Made by a program: the position numbers and the translations under genes. The notes under the pieces were generated by a model. That model saw only the letters and a program-made list of their open reading frames with translations. It did no database searches and had not been told where the DNA came from. A stretch of DNA of 39,466 nucleotides from assembly GCF_000003605.2 (NCBI RefSeq), contig NW_003108581.1, positions 270,963 to 310,428 of the forward strand. The letters run 5' to 3'. Shown here in pieces: positions 1,189 through 24,084 of this stretch. Every line of letters starts with the position of its first letter. The stretch's first letter is position 1. Origin of the DNA: Saccoglossus kowalevskii. Taxonomy: Eukaryota > Hemichordata > Enteropneusta > Harrimaniidae.

Positions 1189-2049
1189 GGGCATTCCTGC
1201 CACCGGGTCAGAAGCAATTGGAAGAGAAGTATCGAGAGGAATTATGGAATATGTTTGGTATTGAATTTAACAAACTCTTCACCATTACTAACATGCCAAT
1301 TAAAAGATTTGCTGATTTCTTATACAGAAGGTATTGATCCCTTGTCTTGTTTATAATTGTTGAACTTTAAGTTTCTGATTGACTAACATTGGTTTGAAAA
1401 TGCAACTTTGAAGAATGTGTGAATATGTGTGCTCGAAGTTGACTGCTGTATTAAACTTGAAAATAAAAATAAATAATTGAAAAAAAAATTGCTTCAGTCT
1501 GCTGGGAATTATGATACTCTTCAGTTGGTGAGAACTTAAAGTCTTGCCAATAAATTAGTAAGAATTACAAATACAAATATGAGAATTTTATATCATATCA
1601 ACTGATTGATGAAAATGTACTCACTCAATCCTACCCCGAGTATTTTGGTGCATCTGTTTTCAACTTGTCAAAATACCACTTGTAAATATGATGCAAAGTT
1701 TTTTTGTTTTTCATTGAAATATACTTTATATTGTAGATTTTGTGTACTGAAACGAAATTTGTATATAGCATATAATACTTAGTATGTTTTTAATTTCTTA
1801 CATGGAGAAATGAATTACAAGACTATATGGATGTATTGGTTAGGAACTTTAATCCTGCTACAGTGCCAGGTTTAATGTGCTATAATACACTGAGTGTCAA
1901 TTGGAATGGGCAGCTATTTGATTGTGACTTTAATCAACAGTTGGATATTGGCATTAGTACAAAGAAAGTTCATGGTATGTTGAATAAATTCACCGAATTC
2001 ACTGCCTGGATGAATGGAGGTTTCCTAATTACGGATTACTGATTTATTC

Positions 2050-2089
<40 letters not shown>

Positions 2090-2370
2090 TTGTTTGAATT
2101 ACAATAATTTATATTAAATACGATTGGAGTATGTCATTAAAGATGTAGACAATTTGGGTGGTTTTCTTATTATTATCAATTTGTTTTTTTTTTTGTTTTT
2201 TTCACTCAGGGCGAAGTGATCATCTGGATCGATTGAAGTCAAATTTCCTGAATGTACACGATATTGAATCGTGTGATGATTTGATTGATGTGCGAATTGC
2301 TGTTGACAATCATTGTTTCGGCTGCACTGCTGGTATGGGCTCTAGCTGACAGGGAGTGACTGCACAGTAA
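1189..2370 (+). CDS. ArsS-like radical-SAM protein, C-terminal three exons (partial), probable selenoprotein
   Basis: These are the last three exons of an animal homologue of ArsS (arsenosugar-biosynthesis radical-SAM family; C-terminal DUF3641 domain). Exon A is 1189-1330 (GAFLPPGQKQLEE..., then FNKLFTITNMPIKRF). Exon B is 1808-1974 (YMDVLVRNFNPATVPGLMC, then NTLSVNWNGQLFDCDFNQ). Exon C is 2210-2370 (ending DNHCFGCTAGMGSS). Acceptors are ttttgtag, catggag and tttttcactcag; donors are aag/gtattg and catg/gtatgt. Phases agree: A ends 'ag', B supplies 'a' (Arg), B ends 'g', C supplies 'gg' (Gly). Family signatures are FTITNMP, LMCxNTLSVxW, DCDFNQ and HCFGCTAGxGSS. The visible part is ~155 residues, about one DUF3641 domain; the radical-SAM core with its CxxxCxxC cluster is outside the window. 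TGA at 2347 sits at the Cys that follows GSS in bacterial relatives; reading through gives SSUQGVTAQ and TAA at 2368. The conservative alternative is termination at 2347. In bacteria ArsS acts after ArsM in making dimethylarsinoyl-riboside; the animal reaction is unproven. Confidence 0.88.
2053..2087. repeat. (TA)n microsatellite
   Basis: A 35-bp uninterrupted TA run lies within the last intron of the ArsS-like gene, between exons B and C. Confidence 0.97.
2347..2349 (+). other. In-frame UGA, probable selenocysteine codon
   Basis: The codon follows CFGCTAGMGSS directly. Bacterial ArsS relatives continue with Cys (recalled pattern GSSCGG), and the family is known to include selenocysteine forms. 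After the TGA the frame gives Gln-Gly-Val-Thr-Ala-Gln and then TAA (2368-2370), so the Gly after the next residue also fits the family tail. A SECIS-like fold lies ~297 nt downstream. The family position and the SECIS together argue for recoding, but recoding itself cannot be seen in DNA. Confidence 0.68.
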
Positions 2371-2645
2371 TTGTGCTCTGTTTTAATTTTCATGACACTC
2401 CATTATACATATATTCTGGGTTTGTATTCTGTTGAGTGTTATAAGTGTGATTGTGCACACACATCTACATAGATTACTTAAGACAAAATGACAAGTTGCA
2501 TTTCTTGAAAAATCTGCTTCAATATTACAATATATTACATTGACCTTGTACTCAAGACAATGTATTTAATGAATTGCATTTAATATTGTATTATGAAACA
2601 CTCACTTAAATTCTGAACAAGTTATCTTGTCTCTCATTTCAATTT

Positions 2646-2689
2646 ATGACATAATTGGCTTAAACTAGAAATAAGTGGCCGATTCTCGA
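2646..2689 (+). promoter_or_regulatory. SECIS-like element in the 3' UTR (core)
   Basis: The core has the order expected of a eukaryotic SECIS. ATGA is at 2646-2649. A 5' helix strand follows at 2650-2661, then AAA at 2662-2664 opening a 14-nt apical loop. The 3' strand is 2676-2687 and GA is at 2688-2689. Pairing register by register gives A-U, A-U, A-U, U-A, U.G, G-C, G-C, C-G, U.G, with C/C and U/C mismatches near the core and a terminal U/U. The 12-nt distance from ATGA to AAA is typical. A weaker lower helix may form between about 2630-2645 and 2690-2702 (ctct with gaga). The element lies between the coding end and the AATAAA at 2790. Confidence 0.65.
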
Positions 2690-2789
2690 TGCTTTGTGAG
2701 ATGAAAGACTAACTCCTGGTATATTTATGTATTTGACTTCTATTATGAATAACATGTATTGACATAATACATTGTACTTACTATGAAAC

Positions 2790-2795
2790 AATAAA
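2790..2795 (+). terminator. Candidate polyadenylation signal of the ArsS-like gene
   Basis: AATAAA lies ~100 nt after the SECIS-like core and ~420 nt after the coding end. It would enclose the SECIS in the 3' UTR, as a selenoprotein mRNA requires. AATAAA is frequent in A+T-rich DNA, so the assignment rests on position. Confidence 0.45.
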
Positions 2796-2894
2796 TTACA
2801 AAAGTATTGAGTCGTTTTACCATGTTGGATTACTAATCTGCAATACACCATACATCTTGGGATACATATCCACGTCCATTCGTTACACGATCCG

Positions 2895-3330
2895 ATTCGA
2901 GTTGGCTGAATGATGGCCATTTTTATGGTTAAAATTCATCATTCAAGCATTTATATCATTCTTGAGCTAGATCCTGGTTGTGTATGGATGGATTTGTTTA
3001 AACGTAGTACATACGTTGCACATAACGAACCCTTGATCATTATGTTTTTTAGACCATATTTAATTTCAACAAATGCTGTTCGGAGCTGTATCTCTGAAAT
3101 GCCTTCACAATCATGTTCATACTTAAAGTTGATAATGCAACACAAAAAATGGATACCAATGGATATCTTTCAACCTTGGTGCATACATTAAAAATAATGT
3201 TCCAGGGCTATAGTGCTGACATGCATACATCAATAGATGTCACACATACGGACCTGCATTCATTCGACAATTATATCCAATATTGCAAAATGGTGATCAT
3301 TTTAGTGATCATTTGACGTGTTTCTAATTG
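2895..3330. repeat. Second degenerate copy of the modular repeat seen at 1-390
   Basis: It shares ggccatttt, 'tatggatggattt', gagctgtatctctgaaatg and 'gttcatacttaaa' phrases with 1-390, in a similar order. Short open frames on both strands here are not convincing. A small palindrome, tgatcattttagtgatca, lies near 3293-3310. Confidence 0.35.
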
Positions 3331-4049
3331 TTTCGCGCCATTAGGCTTTAAAATAGTTCTTCTGTTACAGTAACAGAACTCACTTTCTAAGGATGTTAGT
3401 TCACCAATACAGTCAATCAGTCACATTGGCAAGTTTAGTTAGTTGGTTAGTTTTAAATGTTGCTTCTTCATCAAGTTGATCTGATGTTGCTATCCACCTT
3501 TGTTCTATTACTATAGAGGGGCTTTTCCCCACTTCGTCAAACTGTTCAGTACAGTCCTTTAGTTCCTTTATGAGTGCACTGATTTTCTAATTTGCTGACT
3601 AAGTTCCGATCAGTAACTGGCTTCTGGATATATGCCTAGACAATTTCTTTACCAAGTGGCAGTCGAGAAGTTGTGCTCCCTGGTAGTTTTGTAATTGACG
3701 TTGAAGGTTGTTGATTCCGCTGGCATTAGAGTAATTAATTTCCCCCAGCTTCACAGTTACTTTCAGTGTAAGTCTTGAGAATATGTTTTCTAGTTGTAGT
3801 CAACACTAACTAGATAAATATTTTGTCCCCACTACATCTCACACACGAGAGACTTCTGATTCAGTTCACCAAACATAGATCATGTCTCAATCTTATAAAC
3901 TCTTTTAAGTCCAATATTTAGCTTTGAAGAATTTTCTTGATGGTCAATGATGACCATACCCTAAGGCAGATCACCTATCACCTACTACGGATATGCTTTG
4001 TACTTTGCATACTAGTCTGGTATAGTGAGTATGATGTCCCTTAAATTTT
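3331..4049. other. Intergenic, no gene recognised
   Basis: No open frame of note and no terminal repeats were seen. The stretch is somewhat less A+T-rich than its flanks and may be part of an old interspersed element continuing into the SINE-like head at 4146-4222. Confidence 0.4.
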
Positions 4050-4222
4050 ACATAGTGAAGTCATACTGATTATATTCCGGCCTGCCTCCCACCACTACAA
4101 TATTTTGTCGACCCTCCCCTCAGGCTGACGTATTTTACTGACACCGGGGTTCTAACAGTTCCAACATGCGGCCTCCTCTGGCAGTAAGCCCAGTAATCTA
4201 TCCGATACTAAGCTATTTCTAT
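4050..4222 (-). repeat. Possible tRNA-derived SINE (minus strand)
   Basis: Read on the minus strand, tagcttagtatcgga (4215-4201) resembles a pol III A box and gttagaacccc (4156-4146) resembles a B box. They are ~59 nt apart, wider than in a tRNA but common in decayed SINE heads. A non-tRNA body would follow toward 4050. No A-rich tail or target-site duplication was established. Confidence 0.35.
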
Positions 4223-4895
4223 GGTTTGACTTTACTATACAGCATTTCAAATTATTCCAGAGAATTTGTTTATATTTTTCAAATAGTATATGTAACTAAA
4301 CTGTTGGTTAGGTTATATAGTTAATAAACACAGTACTGCTTACCAGTACGGTAATAGAAGTAACCAAGGTAACCAAATCAGGATAATAATAAAATATAAT
4401 TTTGATAACAAACATGGATTCACAATATTATATTACTAATATATTATTTTTACGAAAGCGTATGCACATTAGAAATTCTAGTCAAGTCATGTGACTATGA
4501 CTGGAAATTGAATGCTCTCACATAATATTTTTCGATGACTTCGGCCTGATTCTATGGCAATTAACTGTATGGTTTGCACTTCAAAAATCAATTTCAAACA
4601 ACAGAAATAAACTGAAAATGTACTGTATAACCAAACCATTTTCACACTGTTTTACTCGACCAACAATAATCGACAATGAAACTGTATGATGATTGTATAA
4701 AAAGAATTAATTAATTAATTAATTAATACAATTAATTAATACAAATCTATATTAATACAGAACTTTCACAAAACATTTCAGATGAATGATTTGGAAATTT
4801 TCACTTTCACATGTTATAACATCTATGCGATTCATTTGTTGGAAATCAAACTCACCGAGCTTGGTGACAATTTCGAATACGAATCCAGCCTCTTA
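4223..4895. other. Intergenic A+T-rich DNA with an (AATT)n run
   Basis: No gene was recognised. A short AATT/TTAA tetranucleotide run lies at 4705-4728, with an imperfect continuation to about 4742. Confidence 0.6.
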
Positions 4896-5170
4896 CCCAA
4901 TCACATGTCTGCCCTATAAGACCAATTACCATATCACTTAATCTTACATTTAAATGTAACGAATCAAATGTGACCGGATGTAAAAAGTAGCCAATCATAG
5001 CGCATCTTAATTGACCAATTATAACGCTGCCATTTATACTCTTCCCGTCCAATTCAGAATGTATATAAGTCGATCATAAGTCATGACTGTATCGGTGTTT
5101 CAATAAATCTGTTCAACTGCCAATAAGCTGTTGTCGCTTCTTTCATCACCCGACGAATCTTACTCCACAT
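4896..5170 (+). promoter_or_regulatory. CCAAT/TATA/AATAAA block: solo-LTR-like fossil or promoter
   Basis: Five CCAAT pentamers occur at 4897, 4922, 4991, 5015 and 5049. TATATAAG follows at 5062-5069 and AATAAA at 5102-5107. The order U3-like CCAAT/TATA, a short R-like stretch, then a polyadenylation signal ~40 bp after the TATA box resembles an LTR of a retrotransposon. Clear TG...CA ends and a target-site duplication were not found, so the limits are approximate. The alternative is an ordinary promoter, but the next gene starts 1.3 kb away. Confidence 0.35.
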
Positions 5171-5629
5171 CATTCTCGTTTTACAATGATATTTATAATG
5201 ATATGAGTACACTAATGTTTGTTATGCTTAAAATAAACATACAAATAAATCAACCCCCTATAGATAATATAAGTTTGACTACTGCTCTAAGATGTTGGTT
5301 TGTCCGTCTACATCACTGAACAAAATGCGCAATTAAAATAATTGAAGTGCGTCAAGCAAAATATCAAATGCAAACTGTTATTAAATGCGACAGCTGGACC
5401 TGTGGTAAGCAACGACATGCATTAACATGTTTACCTTAGTAATCCAGAATATAGTAGAAATGCTTTCCCCGTGACTTGCTACTTAGTTATTGTTCAAAAT
5501 GCTGAGATATTTAATTAAAATTAAATTCGGAGTTCGTTAAATGATTTTTGTAAATAGTTTTGGCTGATAAAATTTCGAACCTACCGATACGAACATTTTC
5601 AGTTATATTGTTTTGAGCCGTCTTGTTTT
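5171..5629. other. Intergenic, nothing recognised
   Basis: A+T-rich DNA with short open frames only. No repeat ends, splice-bounded exon or pol III boxes were seen. Confidence 0.5.
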
Positions 5630-5720
5630 GACGGCTTGGGTGGCGTAGTGAGTTGCCTTGCGTGTCTGTGTATTGTGGCTGGACGCATTTGCCAAGGTTG
5701 TGAGACCGTATGCGTGTTTA
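5630..5720 (+). repeat. tRNA-like SINE head
   Basis: TGGCGTAGTGAG (5641-5652) closely fits the pol III A-box consensus, and GGTTGTGAGACC (5696-5707) fits a decayed B box 55 nt downstream. An open frame of 125 codons spans this segment to 6013. It has no recognisable domain and starts in the SINE head, so I regard it as fortuitous. Confidence 0.42.
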
Positions 5721-6335
5721 TTATATACCAGGGCTTGAATTTCATTGAGAAATTAAATGCGATTGCCTCGACGCCTGAAAATCTACTTTGGCGCCCTTCA
5801 AAATGGGGTATTCTTCCAATAGACAATTCTATCAAATTTGGACTTGCAAAAAGGTGTTCTCGCAACTCAGAAGCTTTAGCCTTGACAAACTTAAGTCTGT
5901 CCTGTAATTTATATTATTTGTTCATTAATGAAGATAGCATATGCTATCATCTGATTAGTATGCAAAGCTGTGATATTATTCCCGCGATAAGCCTAATTTA
6001 CTATGTGATGTAGTGTTAATTGATTCAGTTTTTTTTTGCGGATTCAATATACAGTGATAAATGTTAACCGATATGGTGACAGTTTATAATTTATTTCCCC
6101 CCAATTGGTTTCAAATTCCTGATTGTTTACATACAATAAACTACGGATTAATGCGCAGTGTTGTTGGAAAGAGGTGATTAGTTCCTTCTCGCTTGAACTG
6201 CAACCGTAACCTTGCACCATCCTGAACTGTCATCAACACTAATGATGTAGTGTAGACTAAATTAATTCACAGTCATGCATGCCCGAGTTACAGCTGTTAC
6301 TGCCGCGCATATCGCGTTTTGATTTATACACATTT
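5721..6335. other. 5' flank of the sulfotransferase gene
   Basis: The first part may be the body of the SINE at 5630-5720. The rest is the presumed promoter and 5' leader of the gene at 6358. No convincing TATA box was placed; the transcription start cannot be set by eye. Confidence 0.4.
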
Positions 6336-6365
6336 ATGTCCCCTTTAACAAGGCGTGATGTTTAA
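6336..6365 (+). other. Short upstream ORF overlapping the sulfotransferase start
   Basis: ATG at 6336 opens nine codons (MSPLTRRDV) ending in TAA at 6363-6365. It is out of frame with and overlaps the chosen start ATG at 6358. If the leader includes 6336, scanning ribosomes would meet it first, which could lower translation of the main frame. Confidence 0.4.
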
Positions 6366-7533
6366 CAGGTATCTATCCAGATATGCTTCAACTCCAATAT
6401 TCACAATCGTCGGGTGCGTTATTATATTGTTTGTTTACAACCACGTGAGCCTCAAGCCTTGTAGAACCGATGACAAATTTCTAAAAAACGCTCTTCCAGT
6501 AGTGACTACAGTATACACAACTAGGCCTAGGACAACTGCTCAGACAGGCGATGGTTACTTACCCATAGATGTACCATGGACGGCCGCTCACAATAAAGAT
6601 GACTACGTGAAAGCTAAGTTTGACAAATCATGTTATACGGCGACATTACCTTTTCACATCCCCAAAGCGTTACGTAACGATTCGGAGTTGCATGAACGCG
6701 ATTGTGTGCAACGTGTTCCTAGGGCCATCATTCCGGGAATTCGTAAGTGTGGCACTGCCGCTCTTCAACATTTTTTGACTGTCCATCCTTATATTACTGG
6801 TCCTATCTTGGAGGTTCATTTCTTCGATTCAAAGGGAAAATATAATACAAATGGAGACTCTGAACCAAGTTACGGGTGGTATAAACAACAGATGCCGTAT
6901 ACGACCGTTGAAGAGATTGGTATTGAAAAGACTCCAGCCTACGTGTTCCGACCCCCCGATCTGCCTCGTAGAGTCGCCGAGGAAATGCCCCCGGAAACTG
7001 TGTTTATCGTAACGCTTTGTGATCCAGTGAGGCGAGCCGTTTCGGATTACTTGGAATACAATCGAAAGAAAACTGGTACTGAGGAAATGATGGGACTCCA
7101 CAAGTACGTTGGGGAAACGTTCGAAAGTTCTGTAATACGAAACGGTTATCTAGACCAGTTAAACGAGTTTGTTGATATGGGAATTTACTTAAAACACCTC
7201 CTACGATGGTTAGACCATATACCGATGAATAGATTACACGTAGTTGACGGCGGGATATTGGCAGAGGACCCTGCCCTAGAATTGCGAAAAATTGAAACTT
7301 TTCTCGGCGTTCCGCATTTTTTCAGAAGAGAGCATTTTTATCGGAATGAATCACGGGGACTACAGTGCATGTCGTTTCCATCAACACAACACTGCTTACC
7401 CTTGAACAAAGGAAGAGTTCACCCAGATGTTGCTCTTGATGTTTTTAAACAACTATGTGATTTTTATCGACCATATAATCTCGCTCTGGAGAATCTGTTC
7501 CGTCAAAAATTCACTTGGACAGAAATTTGTTAA
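6358..7533 (+). CDS. Heparan-sulfate 3-O-sulfotransferase-like enzyme, single exon
   Basis: A 391-residue intronless protein of the HS3ST family, which moves sulfate from PAPS to the 3-OH of glucosamine in heparan sulfate in the Golgi. The start is ATG at 6358. Residues ~12-31 (TPIFTIVGCVIILFVYNHVS) form a signal anchor, giving a type II membrane protein. A stem of ~80 residues follows, then the sulfotransferase domain (~120-391). The 5'-phosphosulfate loop is R122-AIIPGIRKCGT with Lys130. EVHFFD (152-157) carries the family's catalytic Glu, and EKTPAY (190-195) its conserved Lys. The 3'-phosphate motif is CDPVRRAVSDY (221-231), keeping Ser229. Cys337 and Cys346 are nine apart, matching the family disulfide pair, followed by the KGR segment. 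Sequons are NDS and NES. Oddities are Cys at 221 where relatives have Arg (RDP/RNP), and CGTA where relatives have GGTR. The length lies between 3-OST-1 (~307) and 3-OST-3A (~406). The subtype cannot be set. Confidence 0.94.
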   Translation: MFNRYLSRYASTPIFTIVGCVIILFVYNHVSLKPCRTDDKFLKNALPVVTTVYTTRPRTTAQTGDGYLPIDVPWTAAHNKDDYVKAKFDKSCYTATLPFHIPKALRNDSELHERDCVQRVPRAIIPGIRKCGTAALQHFLTVHPYITGPILEVHFFDSKGKYNTNGDSEPSYGWYKQQMPYTTVEEIGIEKTPAYVFRPPDLPRRVAEEMPPETVFIVTLCDPVRRAVSDYLEYNRKKTGTEEMMGLHKYVGETFESSVIRNGYLDQLNEFVDMGIYLKHLLRWLDHIPMNRLHVVDGGILAEDPALELRKIETFLGVPHFFRREHFYRNESRGLQCMSFPSTQHCLPLNKGRVHPDVALDVFKQLCDFYRPYNLALENLFRQKFTWTEIC

Positions 7534-12860: not shown

Positions 12861-14721
12861 TTTTAGTAATATGAATGTAATTAATATTCTAAGGAACATT
12901 GGCTTGCTAAATAATATGTTGGGTTAAAGATATTCAGTGCACAATATGTAGCTATTCCGGGTATCTAAATGAAGTTATAGGTGCAGGTCCGTACAGCCGA
13001 ACACCTATATTAAATGTCTCTGTATTTAGTCTGTCTTGGTTGCATACTGTTAAAATAATGAAGCTGTATTGAAGGTGAAATTTTTTATAGTAATATATAA
13101 AAGTTCAAACAAATCTAAAATACCTTACATACCACGATTTTCTGTGTTTAGAATTGGGCCTCAACGTGAATAACATACAGTAAGGTTAAATCCTTCTGTC
13201 AACTGAAGTCGACAAAAATATTATTTTACAAAATCTCGTGGCTTCTGGGAGTAGGGTGGTTAATTCTCGAAATGACCAATTTTATCTAATAATGTAATTT
13301 GTTTTCCTGCTAAAGTTACTTTCGTAAAATTGACTTCATATACCATTAATATTTAAATCCCCCGGGTATTAATGACGTAATATAATTCAATTGTTGGAAT
13401 ATTGTCTGTATTTGTGTGGCAGTATGAGGTGAACGTATTTTTTTGTGAATCAAGTCGTTTCAAGAATCTAATGAGTAATTAAAAAACATTTTATCTACAC
13501 GCAGAACGAAATAGTCAGAGTACTATTTCAAAAACTTCCAAGACGAGCAGGGTTGAAAAATGAGTTGACGATAGAGTATATACGATGTATATAACACGTA
13601 TTTTTTAAGGCTATCTTCCTATAATTCTACAGATAAGATATATAATTGTTTACTGGAATTGCATCTTAGTAATAAGACAATCTTATCCAGTTGCCATAGA
13701 GTTCTATATATGACGCCAACGAGTCACTTAAAAATTCATATGCTTATCATTTTTGAGTGCGACTGCCATTGGGATTCGTGTTAACGATTGTGATTCATGT
13801 TCAGTAATGCAGCAAATACTGTGACGACATAAGAGTAAATTCCTACTTTGTTGGATTGACGTTTCTTGTCCAATGATTGACAGCTGTGCGATGTGAATCA
13901 TTTTTTTTTCTGAACGAGAGTTAAGACAAACAAGTGTTTGATTTGATGTGTTGATTTCAACACAATTATAAATATAGGCACATACAGCTGTACGAAATCG
14001 GACATACAACGCAACAAATTGTGCTAATTTAAAATCCATACAATTCTTTTAATTATTCAATCACGTTTGTACATTACACTGTCGGTTCTTGTGCGCATGA
14101 GAAGTGTCCATTCCGCTGTCACATATATATAAGATCACATATAAAATATGACATATTCAGGCACGTACGGAAACGCATGTTTTAATTGAAATCGACAGCT
14201 TATGTTTAATTGAATTTACCGGTAAAATATAATGAGCTATTTCCATAATACGGAATACTATAGTTTACATGACACGATTACTCAACAGAATATTAAATAA
14301 ATTGATCGAAAATATGCACGCCAATGTGCAAATATACATGTACAGTATCAGCTTTAATAATGAAAATTAAGGTAAATGTTTAGTTATAGCGCCCTCTAGC
14401 AACCTCATCTTTATTTGGAATCCTCTGATTGGATGGAAGTTTTAGCCTGGCAAAGCGTGATATAATTGGCCTGTTATCTTTCAAATGGACCTCTAATTTG
14501 ACAGGGAAGTGATACTTATAATGCAGAAAGTTGTTTTAATCGCCGTTGTGATAAAGTTTTTATATTACTCTATACACTGAAAAATCAGTGTAAAATCCCT
14601 GCAGTTAAGGCTCTTATTGATCAAGGCATTTTTAAAAATCATGATATTTAACTCCCGTCAAGTTATGACCCGTGATCCCCACCCTATAAGATAATGATTG
14701 CATCCAAAATTAAAAATAAAG
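12861..14721. other. Intergenic, no gene recognised
   Basis: A+T-rich with several short open frames on both strands, none with a recognisable domain. 'gcgccctctagc' near 14390 resembles common repeat ends, but no partner was found. Confidence 0.5.
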
Positions 14722-21660: not shown

Positions 21661-24084
21661 TTAATTGCTGGGCTTTCACGCAAGAACATGCTTTTGTGCA
21701 TTTAGATAGTTGGAGACACTTGTTCATTCAAAATTACATTCCACTGTTTTATGTACAGAAATAGAATTCATTATTCTAGACTGCATGGTGTACAATAGAC
21801 ATCTGACTGACATGACTTCTGTAATTCTGTACAATCCATTGTAGCGAGTAAAATAATGTAATTAAAATTTCATGATTGGAGCATATTAACCTTTAAAACA
21901 TATTCTAACTGTAGCTTTCTACAGTAACACTAAGATAATTCCTAACTCGCATCCCCGACCATTTGAAAAACTGATTGAAATCTCGGAAAGTAAGGCTTCA
22001 AAATATTTCACGAAATTAATTCCCTAATTTAAAATATTTGTAATAATATTCATACTTTTTTTAATTTGGTTAATTTAATTTACCATGCACATTCAAAGCG
22101 TAATGAAGAAAGCGTTGAAATCGTGAACGTACTGTAGCATTATTTCAAAGTAGATGTTGATTTGAGTAGACCATTATTTTCATTACTACCCCCTGCTACA
22201 CTAGGGCAATCATAATTATAATTATGGTTCCTCGTCTTCATAATGGCACGAATTGACATAGAACACAGTATTATTGAGTATTTGCCAATGGGATAATATG
22301 CACTTTGATTGATAGGTCTTTCCAAAACTGTGTATAGCTTTGACAACCTAATATCTGGTTAGCACTGAGTCCATCTTAGATATAATAAGTTATATAATAA
22401 AGCGAAACACGTTCTAATTGACTATCGTATTAAATTGAAATAGCTTTTTTCAGCAACGTAAATTACATCATTCTGGTTCGGAGTGTATGTCTGTGGCTTA
22501 ATGTATGGAACTGCCATGATGAAAATTTTACTCCCTTGCGCGCAATTCGAAATGATCAGGCTTTAAAGTCATTCAATCGTCGAATCTTTCCATTCATGGT
22601 AAAATTGACACAGCGGCAGACAAACTGAAAGACAATCGGGAGATTCTATGCTGTTCATCTATTAAAGAACACTCTGGAATACTCAAATAGTCGATTCCAT
22701 TACACTCCTGTTTTCTACACTTTCAATACCAGCAGTAGTATTTTATTGGCGCAAATTTGTAAACCAATTAGAACAAGCCTTATTCAGTACATATAATAAT
22801 TTAAGCCAGAGACTTGGGTTTCTGTTAAAGAGTACAGACATACATTATTAATAAACTCATAACATTTGGCGGTCGATATTATAGGGATATTGACCCAGGT
22901 CAGAGTCGATATAAAAATTTATCGACCAGAAGAGCACATTGACAAAAACAGCCCACTGCACTGGGCCACTAGGATCTAAATACAACGAAATATTACAACA
23001 CGTTCTCGGTAAAATGAACAATTTAATGAAACCCGGATTATGTGCGACACAGATTAGTATTCTTCCCGTAGAAATAATTTATCCTTCAAAATAGCGTTTA
23101 ATGTTTTTTCACACAAATACTAAGTTCCCAAAAGCGTCTCAATTATCACACAATACGTATATTATTACAGAATACTGCATTATATGACCTGGTGGTTAGA
23201 GCAAGTTTAAGTTTAACATCCTAGTCTGTCTCATTACAATTTTATTGTGAACGGAACATTTTGCTAACATTTCGACCATTCTGCTTTGAATTCTTTTCGT
23301 CCGTTCAAAACTTCACCATCTCAAATTATGCGTCATTCTGCATTCTCATTAGATAAATGTTTCATAACTAGTGGCGGAGTCAATGACTACCACACTCGTG
23401 AACGACTAAATCTAGATTCTAAACATGTTAAACATGTGGAATCTTTCAATGTGAAACAATCGTGGAAACACACACACTACTACTATTCGTCGGTACTGGA
23501 CTAGTTAACCGAAGGACACCGGGTTACTGACGAGATATGGCACATTTTTTTAGCTAAATTTGTTAAGATTTTTAAATGCATACCCATCATGGGCCATTTG
23601 AAGATAAAAAGTATATTGCATTTTAGATCACATTGTCATTGAGTATACCGCATTAAAGACCGAATCATAACCACGATTTTTGCATAGGATTTATGGAAGA
23701 GATTTTACTTGGGGTCTTTCGCTTTCTTTTATATTTTAGAAATGCTTAAAATTTTAGTTTTGCTCAGTCATTTTGGTAAACTGTGTGTGCGATATGTTTA
23801 CACAACATGCTAGAATAATTTGCAGAAAAAAAACACGCACGTCCCCATAACGTCTTTTGTAGGGAGCTCCCCTCTCCCACCCGAGCTGTGTGGTGGGTCA
23901 GTGTACGGTAGGTTTTGTGTGTCGTGCCAAAAAAAGCACGTATTGCAAATATTTTATAAAATCTGTTGTTTGACTGTGCAAAATGTTCGATTTTATCAGT
24001 AGACATCTGGCATCGCCTCGGCTTAGACAATCTCACAGCTTTTCGTGATCTCAAGTAGTCTTAGCTGTTTGATATTAGTCGTAC
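21661..24084. other. Intergenic, no gene recognised
   Basis: Short open frames only. TGACCCAGGTCA, a perfect inverted pair of half-sites, lies near 22892-22903. The stretch 23850-23930 is locally G+C-richer, without a recognisable element. Confidence 0.5.

Follow-up and report, generated by a model that had tools for sequence, protein, structure and literature searches.

The closest described relatives of the locus reported here are bacterial. The NCBIfam family TIGR04167 (rSAM_SeCys) carries the name arsenosugar biosynthesis radical SAM (seleno)protein ArsS, and tables in two publications give it as a prokaryotic selenoprotein, in one of them under the label 'Predicted' (PMC9312934; PMC13188914). 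As to its biochemistry, cyanobacterial ArsS is described as acting with ArsM at the start of the arsenosugar pathway (PMC8552651), and the adenosylation of arsenic is described as a radical-SAM step (PMC12159101).

The animal protein has in common with bacterial ArsS the C-terminal domain with its C-X9-G-X4-C and C-X2-C-X7-C/U signatures, and with the TGA-bearing bacterial forms the position of that codon. It differs from them in that the animal gene is split by introns, and in that its TGA is preceded by GSS, as is the Cys in the Cys forms, whereas the bacterial TGA forms have GFT there in 19 of the 20 cases examined. Bacterial SECIS elements sit next to the Sec codon, and eukaryotic ones lie in the 3'UTR; Sec in the animal protein would depend on an element of the eukaryotic kind.

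In a 39,466-base stretch of an animal genome (hereafter the window), we found what, judging by its sequence, is very probably the 3' half of an animal ArsS-type radical-SAM gene whose conserved C-terminal Cys has been replaced by selenocysteine. While ArsS selenoproteins are already known in bacteria, the animal case is new as far as the literature was searched: no animal ArsS selenoprotein appeared among the papers listed, and an earlier report may exist elsewhere. The main text of a metazoan selenoproteome study contains neither 'radical' nor 'ArsS' (PMC3473315), and 'radical' is likewise absent from a sea squirt study (PMC2874816).

Gene structure and family assignment

The three visible exons (Table 1) join in one frame with GT-AG borders and run as a single frame to the TAA, with intron phases, by our own count, of 1 (upstream of the first visible exon), 2 and 1, which bears out the exon structure of the original prediction. 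Together they comprise 470 bases and encode a 156-residue product when Cys is written for the TGA; the frame ends GMGSS-TGA-QGVTAQ-TAA, with HCFGCTAGMGSS directly before the TGA.

Table 1. Features of the ArsS-like locus (window positions; a slash marks a splice border)
Feature	Position	Strand	Basis
Coding exon, first visible	1189..1330	+	Acceptor ...TTTTGTAG/GGGC, donor AAG/GTATTG
Coding exon with C-X9-G-X4-C (MCYNTLSVNWNGQLFDC)	1808..1974	+	Splice sites, motif
Last coding exon, with C-X2-C-X7-(TGA), tail QGVTAQ and TAA at 2368-2370	2210..2370	+	Splice acceptor
Proposed selenocysteine codon (in-frame TGA) at the conserved Cys of the family	2347..2349	+	Alignment with homologues
SECIS-like hairpin: ATGA (2646-2649), 12 bases, unpaired AA(A), in-register helix, GA	2636..2702	+	Rfam SECIS_1, fold, geometry
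First AATAAA/ATTAAA after the TGA	2790..2795	+	Motif scan of 2347-4000

With Cys at the TGA, the joined product matches Pfam DUF3641 with an E-value of 6.3e-51 and TIGR04167 with 2.5e-51, so that the proposed DUF3641-type C-terminus is confirmed by both profiles. The TIGR04167 score of 174.7 bits derives only from the C-terminal profile positions (165-302 of 303) and is to be read against a threshold of 300 bits that is set for the whole protein. In a genome-wide profile search the exons individually align, in order, to TIGR04167 positions 164-212 (E 1.5e-12), 208-266 (E 1.6e-15) and 264-302, the last with one TGA read through (E 9.6e-5). These three exons, constituting one locus, are the only matches to either family listed in the 572-Mb genome (E up to 0.001 and up to 1), and no N-terminal exon of the ArsS family is listed in the genome-wide profile search at E up to 1. 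Since the first visible exon starts inside the ArsS protein, upstream exons are expected. Immediately before the window, where the N-terminal half of the protein would be encoded, the sequence reads N, and the radical-SAM motif (CxxxCxxC) would thus lie outside the visible sequence.

The C-terminal signatures are strictly maintained: C-X9-G-X4-C followed by C-X2-C-X7-C/U is kept in all 104 rows of the set used for the phylogenetic tree, the animal included (the Sec rows being written with C), and the first motif extends as C-X9-G-X4-CD in 104 of 104. The spacing of the first motif in animal and bacterial ArsS agrees with that of the start motif of the SPASM-type auxiliary-cluster domains of radical-SAM enzymes. 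The second half differs from SPASM/twitch domains in reading C-X2-C-X7-C/U, and Pfam SPASM has no match up to E 10 in either of two bacterial ArsS proteins or in the animal protein. What a sequence search of the PDB recovered was for the most part remote radical-SAM proteins aligned over the N-terminal half, for example YydG and SkfB, along with weak matches to fatty-acid-binding proteins.

The state of the coding sequence bears on whether this might be a decaying pseudogene with the TGA as its first disabling change. Such decay would fit a gene that is present as a single locus and has half its length outside the visible sequence, but we regard it as extremely unlikely, given that the 470 joined exon bases contain no frameshift and no stop other than the TGA before the TAA, that all five visible splice sites are intact, and that the residues invariant in a five-row alignment of the animal protein with four plasmid-borne ArsS proteins are retained.

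Chance resemblance to the family is ruled out, and so is bacterial contamination, because the gene has introns; its three exons show eukaryotic splice sites and lie in AT-rich surroundings.

A TGA codon at the position of a conserved cysteine

The TGA at 2347 aligns to an invariant Cys of the four plasmid-borne ArsS proteins, and a Cys stands at this position in every one of the 81 relatives read, as had been anticipated. These comprise 80 genome loci, which are the best 80 of at least 591 confirmed relatives, and one viral contig, the only one that the viral collection gave; the Cys was assigned by codon in 71 of them and by eye in the other 10. One relative (L031) has GSG in place of GSS and nevertheless retains the Cys. 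None of the 81 has Sec at the position, a count drawn from proteins ranked by their similarity to the Cys-written animal protein. Because such a sample leans to Cys forms, we searched 297 genomes of the phylum to which one Desulfohalobiaceae relative belongs (labelled Thermodesulfobacteriota on the tree). ArsS matches over the family cut-off are present in 86 of these genomes and number 90 by our count, of which 26, again by our count, contain one TGA. Twenty of the 26, chosen for carrying one in-frame TGA, were examined, and in all 20 the TGA falls at exactly the codon equivalent to 2347 and is followed by a short tail. The bacterial homologues, as read from their genes, accordingly carry either Cys or a TGA-encoded, presumptive Sec at the position of the animal TGA, in agreement with the entries for TIGR04167 in the publications cited above.

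The codons beyond the TGA also resemble the family. Under the TIGR04167 model the animal product scores 165.9 bits when it is cut at GSS and 169.4 when a Cys is added to that; once the tail is included, it scores 170.3 bits with X written for the TGA and 174.7 with Cys. The six tail codons with X at the TGA therefore add 4.4 bits over the product cut at GSS, and the predicted conservation of the downstream codons holds in this sense: they agree with the family by profile score, and carry no more weight than that gain. In many bacterial proteins the tail begins with C-G-G or C-Q-G, continues for a few residues and stops; that of the animal would read U-Q-G-V-T-A-Q before its stop. In a Leptospirales metagenome-assembled genome (L079), the ArsS tail reads HCFGCTAGMGSSCQGATV and, apart from a Cys in the place of U, equals the animal HCFGCTAGMGSS-U-QG; the two are not close on the tree.

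These comparisons have to be weighed against the simpler reading of the TGA as an ordinary stop that has replaced the Cys codon, in which case the protein would end at GSS with its last Cys lost. A single base change makes a TGA out of TGC or TGT, all 81 relatives have Cys here, and standard translation terminates at TGA. An ordinary stop is nonetheless very unlikely, as it would account neither for the six family-like codons behind it, nor for a SECIS-like hairpin in the right place and on the right strand, nor for the bacterial homologues with TGA at the same position.

A candidate SECIS element in the predicted 3'UTR

The hairpin starts 266 bases past the TAA and, because an AATAAA-type signal follows it, would lie inside the 3'UTR. 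Rfam SECIS_1 aligns to it over its full length (1-64 of 64) with 21.3 bits, which is below the gathering score of 35; the score was 17.7 bits when the searched stretch ended at 2700, inside the hairpin. The E-value of 1 refers to 4227 families against 3701 bases and, by our own arithmetic, corresponds to about 2e-4 for SECIS_1 alone. Positions 1-2700, 2300-6000 and 3000-39466 of the window gave no further SECIS_1 match at E-values up to 10. A genome-wide SECIS_1 search, in which 150 of 6188 candidates were scored, returned five matches, and the hairpin was not among them.

In terms of fold stability the hairpin has a z-score of -2.07, with 8 of 200 shuffles equally stable. Its geometry was assessed with a second grammar, consisting of ATGA, 10-14 bases, AA, a helix in register, GA and an outer helix, under which it shows 9 of 11 in-register pairs and a total of -22.3 kcal/mol. 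The five genome SECIS_1 matches (three over the cut-off and two under it), one of which lies behind a glutathione peroxidase (GPx) gene, also satisfy this grammar, with totals of -14.8 to -26.8. When the 1 kb behind the stop is shuffled with its dinucleotides preserved, 1 of 2000 shuffles reaches -22.3 and 498 of 2000 hold some passing site, and these odds are only indicative, because the second grammar was written after the candidate had been seen and a stricter first grammar did not report the 2646 site. That first grammar reported three other sites in the window, at 13821 and 17298 on the forward strand and at 23365 on the reverse. Across both strands of the whole window, the second grammar passes 18 sites, of which the one at 2646 ranks first and is the sole site at -14.8 or better, the next standing at -11.8; over 10 kb of the same contig (L004), both strands included, no site is better than -12.9. 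An alignment of six elements shows the ATGA and the AA to be invariant and the spacing matched, and TTTATGA...TAAAC is common to the hairpin and the GPx SECIS. We consider the hairpin a good candidate for a SECIS in the 3'UTR of the ArsS-like gene, with a score below the gathering level.

The hairpin also bears on the chance that the TGA is an assembly error at 2347 in a gene of the Cys type: such an error would leave the SECIS-like hairpin unexplained, and we give it a next to negligible probability. The original prediction that the TGA encodes selenocysteine instead finds support in the combination of Cys in all 81 relatives, TGA in all 20 bacterial TGA forms, the tail score and the candidate SECIS.

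Selenocysteine decoding in the genome

The genome contains 11 matches to tRNA-Sec over the cut-off, and of three such loci scanned with ARAGORN two show the anticodon TCA. The tRNA-Sec gene is mostly single-copy, and eleven matches are an unusual number. Ten of the 11 form an array on one contig (C1591, 112-9534), about 1.3 or 0.5 kb apart, and the best-scoring one stands alone on another (C4068).

Three of the five GPx matches in the genome have a single in-frame TGA, two of them reading ENVASL-TGA-GTT, and the GPx on contig C1345 has a 40.2-bit SECIS 1.5 kb downstream on the same strand. With tRNA-Sec and Sec-type GPx genes both present, this genome decodes Sec. The GPx genes provide the nearest comparison within the genome: they share with the ArsS-like locus an in-frame TGA combined with a 3' SECIS, and the ATGA-to-AA spacing is the same as in the hairpin. 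They differ in that their Sec is internal, that they belong to another protein family, and that the SECIS scores 40.2 bits as against 21.3 here.

Two sub-cut-off SECIS_1 matches elsewhere in the genome, C1549:539993-540056 and C3164:770784-770845 (23.5 and 23.7 bits), pass the geometry scan and may belong to further selenoprotein genes.

Phylogeny and origin of the proposed selenocysteine form

The tree was built from 104 rows (the animal protein, the 80 Cys loci, 20 of the 26 TGA forms and three plasmid genes) over 151 columns, and its bootstrap had not settled. The 20 bacterial Sec rows group together with support of 98/82, the animal row falling outside them. An AU test does not reject a tree that joins the animal to these rows (p-AU 0.383). 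As no neighbour of the animal row is well supported, we name no donor lineage, and Sec may either have been gained independently or come from an ancestor shared with the bacterial Sec forms that already had it.

Predicted mechanism and functional implications

If the locus is read as a selenoprotein gene, the hairpin in the 3'UTR would, with high probability, cause Sec to be inserted at codon 2347, and the ribosome would read on to the stop at 2368. The steps beyond this are less sure. By analogy with bacteria, the enzyme may use SAM radical chemistry on methylated arsenic. The four Cys of C-X9-G-X4-C and C-X2-C might hold an iron-sulfur cluster, and as four suffice for one such cluster, the terminal Cys or Sec would be left free. 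The terminal Sec might then be a fifth, free residue which binds or reduces the arsenic substrate; alternatively, it may itself be a ligand of the cluster.

A wider proposal, which we advance only tentatively and hold to be somewhat doubtful as a whole, is that the gene represents a radical-SAM selenoprotein family absent from the animal lists, with an iron-sulfur cluster in the C-terminal domain, in which the terminal Sec directly handles trivalent arsenic or ligates an auxiliary cluster, that the animal would thereby have its own enzyme for the synthesis or detoxification of organoarsenic compounds, and that its Sec may have arisen independently of the bacterial Sec forms. A search of the genome for the arsenosugar glycosyltransferase TIGR04283 gave no matches; this is not taken as evidence of its absence, and because the search found nothing, a role in arsenosugar formation has no pathway support in the animal. 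A cyanobacterial ArsM protein query likewise gave no matches in the genome, a result that is uninformative without a positive control.

If true, an animal ArsS selenoprotein would connect the decoding of selenium in animals with the chemistry of radical SAM and of arsenic, and would offer a concrete test of whether the animal itself makes organoarsenic compounds. The ArsS-like gene is also of a kind that standard annotation is expected to shorten by its final residues.

Genomic surroundings and source of the DNA

Downstream of the ArsS-like gene, an intronless open frame at 6349-7533 on the forward strand of the window encodes 394 residues and matches the sulfotransferase domain PF00685 (9.5e-12).

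The animal source of the DNA is supported by the genome size of 572 Mb and by the mitochondrial contig of the assembly (C4830, 17 kb), in which TGA stands for Trp, AGA for Ser and AAA for Lys at universally conserved sites, AGG being absent from the five genes read. This code is an animal one and speaks against the vertebrate, echinoderm and ascidian codes. With the open frames named by eye, the gene order on this contig is cox2-atp8-atp6-cox3-nad3-nad4L-nad4-nad5-cob; cox1 is opposite in strand to the other named genes, except for a nad6-like frame, and similar frames are repeated near the contig end.
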